NCBI GenBank assembly: GCA_944323165.1
Contig: CALURK010000007.1
Coordinates: 1 to 64,000 of the forward strand
Reading direction: 5' to 3'
DNA: 64,000 nucleotides
Source of the DNA: Candidatus Gastranaerophilales bacterium
Lineage (GTDB): Bacteria > Cyanobacteriota > Vampirovibrionia > Gastranaerophilales > Gastranaerophilaceae
Below are positions 43,847 to 49,406 of the stretch, in pieces. A model generated the notes under the pieces. It was not told the DNA's origin. It made no database searches and saw nothing but the letters and a program-made list of their open reading frames with translations. Each line of letters begins with the position of its first letter. Positions within the stretch are counted from its first letter, which is position 1. Both the position numbers and the translations under genes were made by a program.

Positions 43847-43916
43847 TAAATAGTGAATAGTGACCGCCAAATCCTGATTTTCTTTGGGAATTATTTCTAA
43901 AAAAGGAGCTGTTATT

Positions 43917-45899
43917 TTGAAGAAATTTAAAGCACTGTTGTTGGGTTTAATCATATTCTTAGGATTAATTTTCATATACTTTGTAACATACAATTTTGTT
44001 GAGCCAAAAGGGTATGATTTTATGGTCAAGCACTCTCTTACGGAAAAATTACCGTTTGATAATAACAAAAAAGTTTACGGAAGCCGTGATATAGTTTTAG
44101 TAGTAATTGATTCCAAAACAGTTGATAAATACCGCTGGCCTTGGAAAAGAGAATTAAATTGCAAGATTTACGATTATTTTACAAAATATGCTCATCCTGA
44201 TATTGTGGTTCACGACTCTATCATTGCAACACTTGATAATGACAACCCTGAATCTGACAGAAAATTTTTTAATTCTGTAAACAAACTTGATAATCTTGTA
44301 GTAGGATTTATGCCGTCCGTAATGGGATGGGAAAACAAAGAATTCGGACAAATTTATGACAGCGCTTTCCAAAAATTTTCAATAAAAGCAGTAGATAAAA
44401 CAAGTTCGATAAATAATTTTTACTCAAGCATGATGCCGTTTCCAAAACCATATTTTGATTCAGTAAAACATGCCGGCTCAGTATCAATGCTGCCGGGATT
44501 TATTAATGGAAACTTATCTTCTTATGCAATAGATGAAGTATTCAGAAATCATGAGTATTTTTTGAAATACAAGAGCAATGTTTACCCATCTGTTGCGATG
44601 AAAACTTTTTTGATGAAAAACAACAATCCTAAAGTAATTTTAACTAATAATGCAATTATTTTCCCTGAACTTAATTACAAAATCCCGCAGAAAACAACGC
44701 ATTTTCAATCAATAGTGCCGTTAAAATTCTATAAACTTAATAAAGACGGTTATTCACACCAAAAAATTTCTGCCGTCGATATAATGGATTCTTATGATAA
44801 CTTGAATAATGGCAAAACTCCGATTGTAAATCCTGATTTTTTCAAAAATAAAATTGTCATAATTGGAGCAAATGTTCCTGCAGGAACAGGTTTGAATGAT
44901 AACAAAAATACGCCTATCATATCAAATCACCCCGGAGTTGATATTCAGGCAACTGCAATTGATAACATTATTCATAGAGATTTATTAAAAGTGACACCTC
45001 ATTGGATAAATTTTCTTGTAACGTTATTGGGAATGCTTATTATATATACGATTATAAGAGTTTGTGATTTATTCAAATCAATAGAACTCTCCATTGGAAT
45101 AATCATATTCTACATACTATTTTCAGCACTAAGTTTTTATTTCGGAAACGCAATTAATGTAATAACTCCGCCTGTAATGTTTATAATCACAATGTTAATC
45201 GGATATACTCACAAATTCGTTTTGGAGAACAGAAGCAAGGAAAAGGTAAAATCTGCAATGGGCAAATATATGTCCGAAGACGTTATGAAAAGGGTTATGC
45301 AGAATATAGATAACCTAGGGCTTGGAGGGAAAAAAGCTACAGTAACGGTATTATTTGCAGATATAAGAGGATTTACCTCAATGTCAGAGACAATGTCAGC
45401 TCAACAGGTTTCTGAAATCTTAAACGAATATTTTACGGAGATGGAGCCGATAATAACAAAATACAACGGTATAATAAACAAATTTATAGGCGATGCTGTT
45501 ATGGCAATATTCGGAGAACCTATTCAAGACAAAAACCACGCTGCAAACGCAGTAAGATGCGGTTATGAAATGCTACTTAAAGTAAAAGAGCTTCAGAAAA
45601 AATGGGCAGAAGAGGGAAAACCTAAAATTGAAATCGGTATTGGTATTAATACAGGAGAAGTCTTTGTAGGAAACATCGGTTCTGAAAACAGAATGGAATA
45701 TACTGTTATAGGAGATACAGTCAACCTCGCAAGCAGATTGGAAAGTTATAACAAAGTTTACAAGACAAAAATGCTTATATCATCTTCTACCTATGAAACT
45801 ACCAAAAGCTTTATTGATGTAATGAAAATATCCGACGTAGAAATTAGAGGGAAATCTCACAGAATGAACATTTATGAAGTATTAAAGGTTATCGGATAG
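43917..45899 (+). CDS. CHASE2 class III adenylate/guanylate cyclase
   Basis: 660 aa from the TTG at 43917 (GGAG 8 nt upstream); an in-frame TTG 33 bases earlier would sit in poorly conserved sequence. One span (about 7-27), an extracytoplasmic CHASE2 domain (DIVLVVIDSKTVDKYRWPWKR, HAGSVSMLPG, GANVPAGTG with HPGVDIQATAIDNI), then three more spans (about 370-435). The cyclase domain has both metal aspartates (FADIRGFT, GDAVMAIFG), the base-contact K in NKFIGDAV and the transition-state N/R in DTVNLASRLE. Predicted to sense an external cue and make cAMP. The stop codon overlaps the upstream motif of the next gene by one base. Confidence 0.94.
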   Translation: MKKFKALLLGLIIFLGLIFIYFVTYNFVEPKGYDFMVKHSLTEKLPFDNNKKVYGSRDIVLVVIDSKTVDKYRWPWKRELNCKIYDYFTKYAHPDIVVHDSIIATLDNDNPESDRKFFNSVNKLDNLVVGFMPSVMGWENKEFGQIYDSAFQKFSIKAVDKTSSINNFYSSMMPFPKPYFDSVKHAGSVSMLPGFINGNLSSYAIDEVFRNHEYFLKYKSNVYPSVAMKTFLMKNNNPKVILTNNAIIFPELNYKIPQKTTHFQSIVPLKFYKLNKDGYSHQKISAVDIMDSYDNLNNGKTPIVNPDFFKNKIVIIGANVPAGTGLNDNKNTPIISNHPGVDIQATAIDNIIHRDLLKVTPHWINFLVTLLGMLIIYTIIRVCDLFKSIELSIGIIIFYILFSALSFYFGNAINVITPPVMFIITMLIGYTHKFVLENRSKEKVKSAMGKYMSEDVMKRVMQNIDNLGLGGKKATVTVLFADIRGFTSMSETMSAQQVSEILNEYFTEMEPIITKYNGIINKFIGDAVMAIFGEPIQDKNHAANAVRCGYEMLLKVKELQKKWAEEGKPKIEIGIGINTGEVFVGNIGSENRMEYTVIGDTVNLASRLESYNKVYKTKMLISSSTYETTKSFIDVMKISDVEIRGKSHRMNIYEVLKVIG

Positions 45900-45933: not shown

Positions 45934-46509
45934 ATGAAAATAAATGCCCCAAATACAACAAATTTTAAAGCAAAATTCATCTGCAATACCCAGATAAAGA
46001 AAATAAATCCCAAAACTGATACATACTCACCACTTAAAGTTTCATTCTTAGAATATGAGCCTGACAACCCCAAAGATTTGAATGCTCTTATAAATACTGC
46101 AAAATCGTGGAAAGGTCGTCTTTATGCTGGAAGAATTGCAGAAAATGCATCTTTAATCTCATCAGGAGATATGTCTAAAAATAAAAACCACATATATATT
46201 TTGTCCAAACAACAGGAAAATTTTAATAAATTAAATACCCAAGATATTCTGGGCCTTGCCCATTTGGTAAGCGAAAGTAAATCAATGCCGGATGAATTAA
46301 GACTTTTTGAAGTCAACCCGAAATTTAAATATTCCAGAGATAAAAAGAGGGAATACAAAGGTCTTGGGGAGAGTATAATTTCCTCCCTAAAAAAAATCTG
46401 CAATAACTCTATAAGATTAATTTCCTCATATTCCGCAGCAAATTTTTATGAGAAACAAGGTTTTGAAATCATGGATACCGACCTTTTAGAATACATCTGG
46501 AAAAAGTAA
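45934..46509 (+). CDS. GNAT-like protein with lineage-type N-terminus (copy 1)
   Basis: 191 aa. The N-terminus NAPNTTNFKAKFICNTQIKKINP is a short Asn/Phe-rich lead, followed by PLKVSFLEYEPDNPKDLNALINTAKSW. The C-terminal half has a GNAT shape: ILGLAHLV strand, a YKGLGESIISSLKKIC loop-helix in the acetyl-CoA position, and the SAANFYEKQGFEIM motif typical of GNAT ends. The acceptor is unknown. It is a paralogue of the next gene (same lead, same V-F/E-EPDN block and same end). No ribosome site precedes the ATG; the shared upstream motif does. Confidence 0.7.
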   Translation: MKINAPNTTNFKAKFICNTQIKKINPKTDTYSPLKVSFLEYEPDNPKDLNALINTAKSWKGRLYAGRIAENASLISSGDMSKNKNHIYILSKQQENFNKLNTQDILGLAHLVSESKSMPDELRLFEVNPKFKYSRDKKREYKGLGESIISSLKKICNNSIRLISSYSAANFYEKQGFEIMDTDLLEYIWKK

Positions 46510-46531
46510 ACAGTCTGTTATCACTCAATTT

Positions 46532-46556
46532 GCAAAAATCTTTTTTTAGAGTTTTA
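46532..46556 (+). promoter_or_regulatory. Shared upstream motif, copy C
   Basis: GCAAAAA at 46532 and GTTTTA at 46551-46556, 19 bases start to start, ending 11 nt before the ATG at 46568. Confidence 0.6.
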
Positions 46557-46567
46557 ATAAAACTGCT

Positions 46568-47128
46568 ATGATAAATTCGATAAATTTTGGTGCAAAATTA
46601 ATAAACACGGCTCAAATAAAAAAATTAAATCCGCAAGATAAACTGTTCCACCCTCAAAAAGTTTCAATCGCAGAATTTGAACCTGATAATATTGAAGATG
46701 TATTTGCGCTAACACTAGCTGCCAAAGACTGGATATATGATAAATATGCTTCCGCTATCTCATTCACAGCCCACTGTATTTTTAGAAACTCGCTTGATAA
46801 AAATAAACATAAAGTTTTTTTGCTAACAGAACAACTCAATGATTTAAAAAGTTTAGATAAAAATAAAATTCTTGGGATGGCTGAAATTGAAAAAACTGGT
46901 GAGAAATCAATCGAATTAAACCATATTCAAGCCAATACTAACTATGACATATTTTCAAATGAATTCTATTACAAAGAAGTCGGTACAAGAATTCTGGACA
47001 CACTAAAATCACTTTATGACAAAATCGAACTAACGGCAGCAAGAGGAAGTGTTAAAAATTTTTATATAAAAAACGGATTTAAAAACATCAATTCGGATGA
47101 AAACAGATATCTCTGGGAGAGGGCTTAA
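46568..47128 (+). CDS. GNAT-like protein with lineage-type N-terminus (copy 2)
   Basis: 186 aa. Opens with SINFGAKLINTAQIKKLNP, aligning with the NFKAKFICNTQIKKINP of copy 1, then KVSIAEFEPDNIEDVFALTLAAKDW. The GNAT part has ILGMAEIE, KEVGTRILDTLKSLYDK and RGSVKNFYIKNGFKNI. The pair differ enough to suggest an old duplication. No signal peptide, no ribosome site. Targets could be proteins or small molecules; nothing in the sequence decides. Confidence 0.68.
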   Translation: MINSINFGAKLINTAQIKKLNPQDKLFHPQKVSIAEFEPDNIEDVFALTLAAKDWIYDKYASAISFTAHCIFRNSLDKNKHKVFLLTEQLNDLKSLDKNKILGMAEIEKTGEKSIELNHIQANTNYDIFSNEFYYKEVGTRILDTLKSLYDKIELTAARGSVKNFYIKNGFKNINSDENRYLWERA

Positions 47129-47242
47129 GATAATTTTACACACCTCTTTGTAAATTTTTATTAAGAAATCTAGCCACTTGGTCAATTTGTCATTAAAAAA
47201 ATACTTTACATGACTATAAGTGTGAAAAACTAGTGTGTGAAA

Positions 47243-47998
47243 ATGAATTTTGTATATAATACCCCGATATTAAATAAAATAAATATCCCCCATATTCCAT
47301 TTCGTTCTGTAACCCCAAGTTATATTGGAAAAGCAGAAGGGATAAGGCAGGATTCTTTTTCTTCCGATCCTCTATCTTCAAGCTTTGTAGACAAAAATAC
47401 ATTAACCCAAATAGCAAAATCTAACCCGAGGGTTATGGACATTTTAAAAGAAAATAATATCCGCTTGAATGTTAATACTCAAGAGCTGAACAAACTTAAA
47501 AACGGGCACCTTATGGACACGCGTATAACCGCAGCTAAAATGTATTCAGCTCTTCCTCAAAACTTGAAATCGGAAGTAAACTTAAGCGATTTACAACAAG
47601 CAGCAATGCTTCACGACTACGGCAAAGTCTTAATTCCAGAAAAAATCCTTAATAAATCAAGCAAACTTAATGAAAAAGAACGAGAAATAATGAAGCTACA
47701 CTCAGAATTGGGGTATGAATTATTAAAAGACCAGGGTGTAAATAAAAATGTACTGGATTTGGTTAAATACCACCACCAAACACCTAACGGAGGTGGGTAC
47801 CCCGCTATAACAAATGATTTCAAACCTAATGTATCATCAGAAATTATTACTACAGCCGATAAGTATTCCGCCCTTAGAGAAAAACGAAGTTATAAAGATG
47901 CTCTTTCTCGAGAAAAAGCTCTAAATATGATTAAAGAGGATGTAGATAAAGGGCTTATATCACAAGAAGTTTATAATGCCCTAGAAAAAAGTGTATAA
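47243..47998 (+). CDS. HD-GYP-like phosphodiesterase domain protein
   Basis: 251 aa from the ATG at 47243; a GTG 6 bases upstream is equally possible and no ribosome site is clear. The first ~55 residues are a low-complexity lead with PHIPFRSVTPS, similar in style to other lineage proteins here. The HD domain keeps AAMLHDYGKVLIPEKIL, MKLHSELGYELL, VKYHHQTPNGGGYPAI and TTADKYSALREKRSY, so all metal ligands are present and the GYP motif is nearly complete. c-di-GMP hydrolysis is therefore plausible. Confidence 0.82.
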   Translation: MNFVYNTPILNKINIPHIPFRSVTPSYIGKAEGIRQDSFSSDPLSSSFVDKNTLTQIAKSNPRVMDILKENNIRLNVNTQELNKLKNGHLMDTRITAAKMYSALPQNLKSEVNLSDLQQAAMLHDYGKVLIPEKILNKSSKLNEKEREIMKLHSELGYELLKDQGVNKNVLDLVKYHHQTPNGGGYPAITNDFKPNVSSEIITTADKYSALREKRSYKDALSREKALNMIKEDVDKGLISQEVYNALEKSV

Positions 47999-48007
47999 CA
48001 ACTAAAC

Positions 48008-48040
48008 GGACGGGTTATATATTAACCCGTCCGATCTTTT
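48008..48040. terminator. Bidirectional terminator between the two HD-GYP genes
   Basis: GGACGGGTT (48008-48016) and AACCCGTCC (48024-48032) form a perfect 9-bp stem, followed by GATCTTTT on the plus strand. Confidence 0.8.
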
Positions 48041-49406
48041 ATTTATTTACAACATTGAATAAAGCATTAACTACTACCGGATCCCATTTTGAACCGGCTT
48101 CTTCTTTTATAATTTCCAGTGCCTGCTCCTTACTCATTGCTTTTCTGTATGATCTATCTGATGTCATAGCTGTATAAGCGTCTGCTACGGCAATAATTCT
48201 TGAACCGAACGGTATTGAATTACCTTTCAAACCTTCAGGTTCGCCACCACCATCCCAACGTTCTTTGTGATAATGAATATATGGAATTACTTCTGACAAG
48301 AAATTTATATTCATCAACAAATTTACACCTACATTCGGGTGGTTCTGAAGCTGTTCCCACTCTTCTTTTGATAATTTGCCCTTATTCGCAAATAATGATT
48401 CAGGAAGAGTAATCTTACCGATATTCTGCAACAAACCTGCATAATATACTAAATCAGTTGTTTTTTCGTTCAAACCTAATTCACGACATAATTTTCTTGA
48501 TAAATCAGCCGTATTTTGTGAATGTGATACTTTATACTGACCTTTTTCATCCACAGCCTTAGCAAGTTTTTCCACAAATGCCTGCTGATTTGCACCCAAA
48601 TCACCGATTAAGGCAGTTAGCTCTGCTCTTTTATGCTGCAAGTCCTCTGCAAAAACTTTATCCTGATTAATTAAACCTTCTGTTTCTTCTATTACTTTTT
48701 GAAGATGCATTGAAGTTCCAAATAATCTGCCTATTGTTTCTAATAAATTCATATAAGCACGCTTTATAGTCTTTTCTTTGTAATTTTCTATTACAATTAC
48801 ACCGACTACATGCGCGTTGTTGTGCATCGGAACTACCGCTAATGATTTTACGTCATACTCTTTTAATTCGTATTTAGGAATAAAATTCTCTATCTTTGAA
48901 ACATCTTTAATCTGAACTTTTTCCAATGTATTAAATGATTTTACTACAATAGATTTATCATCCTTGGTATATCCGAGCTTTTTAGCATAAATATCTTCAT
49001 CAAAGTCAATTGAAGAACCTACAAGACCCAAAACTTTATCATCAAAATTTAAACCCTTTGTAAATTCACTTGTTAAATATATATGACAAGCATCAACATC
49101 CAATATTTGAGTAAGGGTTTTGGCAATCGAATTGTACACAACATACTCGTCTTGGGAACTAAAGCCCAATACGCATAAAGTGTTATCCAACGAATAAATA
49201 GATATTAATTCCTTTAACTGAGATTTTAATCTACTTGTCTTATCCTTGACATCCTTGCCTATTTTATTCGCTAGTTCTTCAGAAATTAAATATTCAGATA
49301 CAAAGTCGCCAATGTTTAATGCGAAAATTTCTTCTAAAGGATCATCTTCCATCAAATCTATTGAACGGCTGAAGAGTGATGCACCCATTTCTTCTTTATC
49401 TGTCAT
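48039..49406 (-). CDS. GAF + degenerate HD-GYP domain protein
   Basis: 455 aa. An N-terminal helical part, a GAF-like sensor (about 75-235, ending VVGVIVIENYK), a coiled coil (about 235-285) and an HD-GYP domain (285-455). The catalytic HD is replaced: LLQNIGK (Q327, N328) stands where LLHDIGK is expected. The GYP motif reads GGGEPEGL instead of GxGYPxGL. The other histidines (SHSQN, NHPNVG, IHYHKE) and VADAYTAMTSDRSYRKA remain. Probably an inactive c-di-GMP receptor rather than a phosphodiesterase. Confidence 0.88.
   Translation of the reverse strand: MTDKEEMGASLFSRSIDLMEDDPLEEIFALNIGDFVSEYLISEELANKIGKDVKDKTSRLKSQLKELISIYSLDNTLCVLGFSSQDEYVVYNSIAKTLTQILDVDACHIYLTSEFTKGLNFDDKVLGLVGSSIDFDEDIYAKKLGYTKDDKSIVVKSFNTLEKVQIKDVSKIENFIPKYELKEYDVKSLAVVPMHNNAHVVGVIVIENYKEKTIKRAYMNLLETIGRLFGTSMHLQKVIEETEGLINQDKVFAEDLQHKRAELTALIGDLGANQQAFVEKLAKAVDEKGQYKVSHSQNTADLSRKLCRELGLNEKTTDLVYYAGLLQNIGKITLPESLFANKGKLSKEEWEQLQNHPNVGVNLLMNINFLSEVIPYIHYHKERWDGGGEPEGLKGNSIPFGSRIIAVADAYTAMTSDRSYRKAMSKEQALEIIKEEAGSKWDPVVVNALFNVVNK

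Follow-up and report, generated by a model that had tools for sequence, protein, structure and literature searches.

Here we report that one gene in a window of 64,000 nucleotides from Candidatus Gastranaerophilales (positions 1 to 64,000 of contig CALURK010000007.1, assembly GCA_944323165.1; the window hereafter) encodes a protein of 455 aa that, judging from its sequence, is nearly certainly a non-hydrolytic pseudo-enzyme carrying a GAF domain and a degenerate HD-GYP domain. Because the residues that would cut the messenger c-di-GMP are lost and most of those that would hold it are kept throughout the group, the protein is probably a sensor of the messenger and not an enzyme. The best single reading is that of a c-di-GMP receptor, the main rival being a scaffold for protein interactions. 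In its full form, to which we give slightly better than even chances, the preferred reading describes a soluble pseudo-phosphodiesterase that would bind c-di-GMP without metal and pass the signal on through its stalk, its GAF domain and its N-terminal segment. The coordinates of the gene and of its parts are collected in Table 1.

Table 1. The pseudo-enzyme gene, its parts and its immediate surroundings (positions in the window; residues of the 455-aa protein)
Feature	Position	Strand	Basis
Whole gene, GAF + degenerate HD-GYP protein, 455 aa (stop codon included)	48039..49406	minus	ORF, Pfam, orthologues
N-terminal segment, residues 1-80, motif DPLEEIFALNxGDFxSEYLIS..LKELISIYSL	49167..49406	minus	Conservation; self-match only in own genome
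GAF-fold domain, residues about 84-235	48702..49157	minus	Pfam GAF, model, structural matches
Stalk helix, residues about 253-288	48543..48650	minus	Helix in model; PmGH and DvhD papers
HD-GYP-fold domain, residues 284-445	48072..48557	minus	HD_5, E 2.9e-44
LLQNIGK (residues 325-331; Q327, N328) where LLHDIGK is expected	48414..48434	minus	Motif reading, alignments
K381 where the HH pair would have its second metal-binding His	48264..48266	minus	Alignment; K/R in 135/142 in-order sequences
GGGEPEGL (residues 386-393; E389 for Tyr) where GxGYPxGL is expected	48228..48251	minus	Tyr in 0/151
Bidirectional terminator-like hairpin between convergent genes	48007..48033	.	11 pairs, strong, between both stop codons
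Convergent short HD-GYP gene, motifs intact (neighbour, outside the system)	47237..47998 (alternative ATG 47243)	plus	ORF, ligand alignment

The open reading frame starts with ATG, and Pfam recognized two domains in its product, GAF (residues 91-231, E 4.6e-9) and HD_5 (151.3 bits over the whole domain), the HDOD profile reaching 28.3 bits over residues 292-335 only. The first-pass annotation had described QN in place of HD and GEP in place of GYP, facing an intact HD-GYP gene across a single terminator, and all of this held on re-examination, the neighbour keeping LHDYGK, GGGYP and all seven positions of binuclear metal ligands. A structural model predicted from an alignment of 22 rows had a mean pLDDT of 71.7 and was good in the GAF domain (about 80-94) and the C-terminal helices, with a helix at 253-288, the counterpart of the one leading into the HD-GYP domain of PmGH and of DvhD. 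The pLDDT fell below 50 at residues 1-49, 331-342 and 367-396, the latter two stretches being the pocket loops, and because of this weakness residue correspondence was taken from sequence alignment. A single-sequence model made without alignment was useless (mean pLDDT 35). Foldseek comparison of the alignment-based model with the PDB gave PmGH (4MCW), the best match, and DvhD (9RBZ) at the top, with 4R8Z and 3TM8 also among the matches listed; VIA-align superposed 154 residues on DvhD (Z 14.8, rmsd 3.2) and yielded Z values of up to 16.6 against solved GAF domains.

The loss of catalysis is best appreciated against PmGH of Persephonella marina, an active tri-iron enzyme with the same combination of GAF domain, stalk helix and HD-GYP domain. 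As described in PMC4159591, its metals are held by eight ligands (E185, H189, H221, D222, H250, H276, H277 and D305), Ala at six of the eight essentially abolishes activity, and H221A, D222A and H277A each have this effect. The 455-aa protein keeps four of these positions (H295, H356, H380 and D409) and carries Y291, Q327, N328 and K381 at the others, so that it lacks three of the seven binuclear ligands, namely H221 (Q327), the bridging Asp D222 (N328) and H277 (K381). The same alignment ruled out the HYHKE stretch as the HH pair and placed H380 as its first His and K381 as its second.

The catalytic Asp is absent from all 151 distinct orthologues compared, being replaced by Asn in 142/142 sequences from the order and by Ser, Thr or Ala in the 9/9 from other families. 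N328 was likewise found in 82/82 rows of a separate conservation alignment, and by both counts the Asn is not due to chance. The first HD position is more variable in the order (Q in 118, R in 11, H in 9, S in 2 and L in 2 of the 142) and is G in the nine others, which share 41-44% identity, belong to two other families (f9 and f15) and read GS, GT or GA at HD. The GYP Tyr is present in 0/151, and 1/151 retains the second HH residue as His; H380 has become Gln in 37/151 and H356 is lost in 14/151. Many orthologues lack both HH residues, while the 455-aa protein loses one of them in addition to HD. Regarding the samples, the conservation alignment dropped 21 loci (shorter than 430 aa, with stops, or fragments), a second protein set of at least 400 aa without stops comprised 96 distinct proteins, and the 151 sequences are what remained of 159 after removal of nested ones. 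L006/L064 were left out on account of one TAG, L112 for a stop, L126 because it breaks across the motif and L051-L054 as fragments; those of them that cover the motif also read QN.

The claim that this copy is catalytically dead is thus borne out as far as sequence can tell. A rearranged metal centre of H295, H356, H380 and D409 might still support residual phosphodiesterase or phosphatase activity, as four of the seven ligand positions persist in the 455-aa protein and D409 is kept in 141/142 in-order sequences, but the bridging Asp is missing everywhere, H380 is Gln in 28/142 in-order sequences and in 9/9 others, and the PmGH substitutions cited above are essentially inactivating, all of which makes this explanation very improbable. 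Across the family the metal ligands have gone on eroding, while R418, R421 and E436 have stayed nearly invariant.

We found the gene to be an old, maintained pseudo-enzyme and not a decaying one. An orthologue, full-length or partial, was detected in 53/57 genomes (the own genome and 56 relatives) and was not found in G001, G034 (96% complete), G052 and G056, and a scan of genome contigs gave 80 loci, many of them in Candidatus Gastranaerophilales; the alignment of relatives that was proposed earlier as the check on QN shows that it is no single-strain change. With residues 1-270 as the query, 205/289 sampled genomes of the class (which we take to be Vampirovibrionia/Melainabacteria) gave a match, 12 of them in the two other families, and the non-matching genomes among those listed (20 of 84) all belong to other families of the class. 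In a sample of the phylum, 131/292 genomes matched at E 1e-8, every one of them from family f1 or f6 of the window's order, and the search of these 292 genomes for an origin outside the class found no ancestor with an intact HD. In a tree of 60 HD domains the 37 rows of the family formed one branch (100/100, and in 200/200 bootstrap trees), a result retained (100/100) after the addition of three PDB sequences in a tree that left out five long or divergent comparator rows. The loss of the catalytic residues has one origin and is conserved not only throughout the order but also in two other families of its class. The family is under strong purifying selection: whole-gene dN/dS against nine close relatives ranged between 0.025 and 0.057 in seven of the nine pairs, dS being saturated in the other two, and these values are rough because synonymous change is near saturation.

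The closest precedent for a dead HD-GYP domain that binds c-di-GMP is DvhD of Desulfovibrio vulgaris (PDB 9RBZ and 9RC0). According to PMC13090378 its HD is replaced by SQ and its HH by Met-Asn; c-di-GMP occupies one canonical and one bridging site with a Kd of about 99 nM and is not hydrolyzed, the crystal is metal-free, and the stalk helices splay on binding. DvhD aligns gaplessly to residues 277-438 of the 455-aa protein, and its Y523, L577, M646, R650, Y652, R653 and E668 correspond to Y291, L345, M414, R418, Y420, R421 and E436, while K520 and P567 of the bridging site correspond to K288 and P335. Of the canonical contacts Y523, L577, K582, Y621, M646, R650, Y652 and E668, six of the eight are the same residue here, and the two missing are phosphate contacts, Y621 (the GYP Tyr, E389 here) and K582 (W350 here); the charge of E389 could repel phosphate.

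The contacts are also kept in the orthologues: R418 and R421 each in 150/151 (one gap each), Y420 in 139/151, Y291 as Y or F in 142/151, K288 as K or R in 151/151, and position 436 as E in 146 and D in 3 with 2 gaps. Since R418, Y420 and R421 are nearly universal in 23 mostly active HD-GYP comparators too, their retention may reflect the fold and not the ligand. Position 436, where four of these comparators have E and two have D, would be the more telling one, if read with some caution given a less certain alignment there. DvhD itself fell outside the family branch, and the tree neither supported nor rejected it as sister of the family (p-AU 0.31 for a joint clade); as the two do not group, ligand use is not transferable by descent. 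The earlier proposal of a c-di-GMP receptor remains plausible in view of the DvhD precedent and of most base and phosphate contacts being kept, but is weakened by the two missing phosphate contacts.

These same two losses (E389 and W350) suit the main rival reading, in which the HD-GYP-like domain would bind no nucleotide and serve as a scaffold for protein interactions, regulating for instance the GGDEF or active HD-GYP proteins of the genome. Such a role would also fit the strong conservation of the N-terminal segment, the proposal that degenerate HD-GYP proteins act on other c-di-GMP enzymes (made for NosR in PMC12570481) and the report that the GYP of RpfG is needed for binding GGDEF proteins and not for hydrolysis (PMC4159591). 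We nevertheless regard the scaffold as rather unlikely: the contacts that DvhD makes to base and ribose (Y291 as Y/F, Y420 and E436) are kept in two divergent branches as the rest of the metal site decays, and this pattern suits a retained ligand pocket better.

In the receptor reading, c-di-GMP would sit in the former substrate pocket, held by R418, Y420, R421, Y291, L345, M414 and E436, with the basic K381 and N328 perhaps standing in for the charge of the metals. Binding would then, as in DvhD, shift the stalk helices between the GAF and HD domains inside a dimer, a change that the N-terminal segment would read out by binding a partner protein. We infer this segment to be a candidate output interface. 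It is strongly conserved, with certain residues kept even in f9 and f15 (DPLEAIYALNIGDF), is single-copy in that it matches only itself in the own genome, and has no Pfam family above the cut-off. A BrxL_N match on the N-terminus was set aside as chance (E 0.009, below the cut-off, 2/22 members).

The GAF fold assigned by the first-pass annotation is present, but its role as a ligand sensor is less secure. Apart from the linker at 241-260, no part of the protein is less conserved than residues 141-180. L134, L132, L133, L135 and L136, as well as genera with forms of 415-430 aa, have a shortened or deleted stretch around residues 140-183, which suggests that the GAF pocket is dispensable in those lineages. 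These observations weigh against a GAF ligand as the main signal. The invariance of C107 in the GAF domain would favour such a ligand, and the replacement of the GYP Tyr by E389 alters the HD-GYP pocket in a way that could admit another nucleotide (3'3'-cGAMP, pGpG or c-di-AMP); 3'3'-cGAMP is a ligand of DvhD as well, bound at about 501 nM (PMC13090378). Taken together we consider a main signal other than c-di-GMP improbable.

The genomic setting is in keeping with c-di-GMP as the signal. The own genome has seven GGDEF, seven HD_5 and two PilZ matches and 0 matches to EAL, so that c-di-GMP is very likely both made and sensed there, with HD-GYP as the sole one of the two phosphodiesterase classes found; GGDEF is present in 57/57 genomes. 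The best of the seven HD_5 matches is the 455-aa protein itself. Two short paralogues, the convergent neighbour (253 aa) and L147 (C4:87420-87797, 258 aa), have full sets of metal ligands and no GAF domain. L142 (C5:70694-71194) combines GAF with an HD-GYP domain in which HD and HH are intact and GYY stands for GYP. L144 (C5:99059-99508) is a GAF-GGEEF-HD protein of 634 aa with LLYDIGN, in which Tyr replaces His and Asn replaces Lys, and with intact GGEEF and GYP; in 13/13 sampled genomes of the same family there are ORFs of 632-648 aa whose HD_5 match extends about as far, and this second, partly degenerate HD-GYP type may be conserved.

The earlier suggestion that the intact and dead genes form a meaningful convergent pair was not supported. 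They are adjacent in only 5/40 loci, the window included and all from close relatives, and the two proteins fall apart in the HD tree; the neighbour is incidental. No conserved gene neighbours, and with them no hint of function, were found in the order among the 40 loci, a few of which end soon past the gene; a few neighbours recur at loci from other families. Further along the window, 43884-45899 encodes a CHASE2 protein with a class III adenylate/guanylate cyclase domain and adjoins two GNAT-like proteins (45934-47128).

Degenerate GGDEF and EAL domains that serve as receptors are well known. Dead HD-GYP receptors are known as well, DvhD (2026) being the one structural precedent that we found in the literature. 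The 455-aa protein resembles DvhD in the loss of HD and HH metal ligands (of HH, one here and both in DvhD) from an HD-GYP fold, in the stalk helix before the domain and in six of the eight canonical contacts. DvhD, as portrayed in PMC13090378, is however a membrane protein with periplasmic dCache and PAS domains, keeps GYP, has K at the position of W350 and lies in an adhesin/protease operon, whereas our protein is soluble, has E in GYP, and lies among no conserved neighbours and on another branch of the tree. NosR of Burkholderia pseudomallei also has a degenerate HD-GYP domain (HG-GTP) and is likewise presumed inactive, but from its description in PMC12570481 it is a response regulator with REC, no GAF and a nosP/nosK operon; the NCBIfam NosR model matched the HD part only of our protein (150 bits against a cut-off of 400). 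Bd1817 of Bdellovibrio (PDB 3TM8) has lost the GYP Tyr and is inactive on c-di-GMP (PMC4159591, PMC8177086), its metal site not being lost since the di-iron centre is kept (PMC8177086). In the literature accessible to our search nothing was found on HD-GYP in Melainabacteria or on c-di-GMP in Gastranaerophilales, apart from passing mentions of diguanylate together with Melainabacteria in three papers.

What is new here is a soluble, lineage-wide family with a replacement of the metal site unlike that of DvhD. Its wider significance can be put forward only tentatively, and we hold it to be possible yet doubtful: an ancient GAF/pseudo-HD-GYP family of single origin would be a core c-di-GMP receptor of the non-photosynthetic relatives of Cyanobacteria, with Asn and Lys/Arg carrying the phosphate and a lineage-specific N-terminus signalling to a partner, and would constitute an effector class apart from DvhD that evolved independently. 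The family extends across the order into other families of the class, spans gut and environmental bacteria, and allows the presumed loss of catalysis to be placed on a tree. It also carries a warning for annotation, in that the strongest HD_5 match of a genome can be the non-enzyme.
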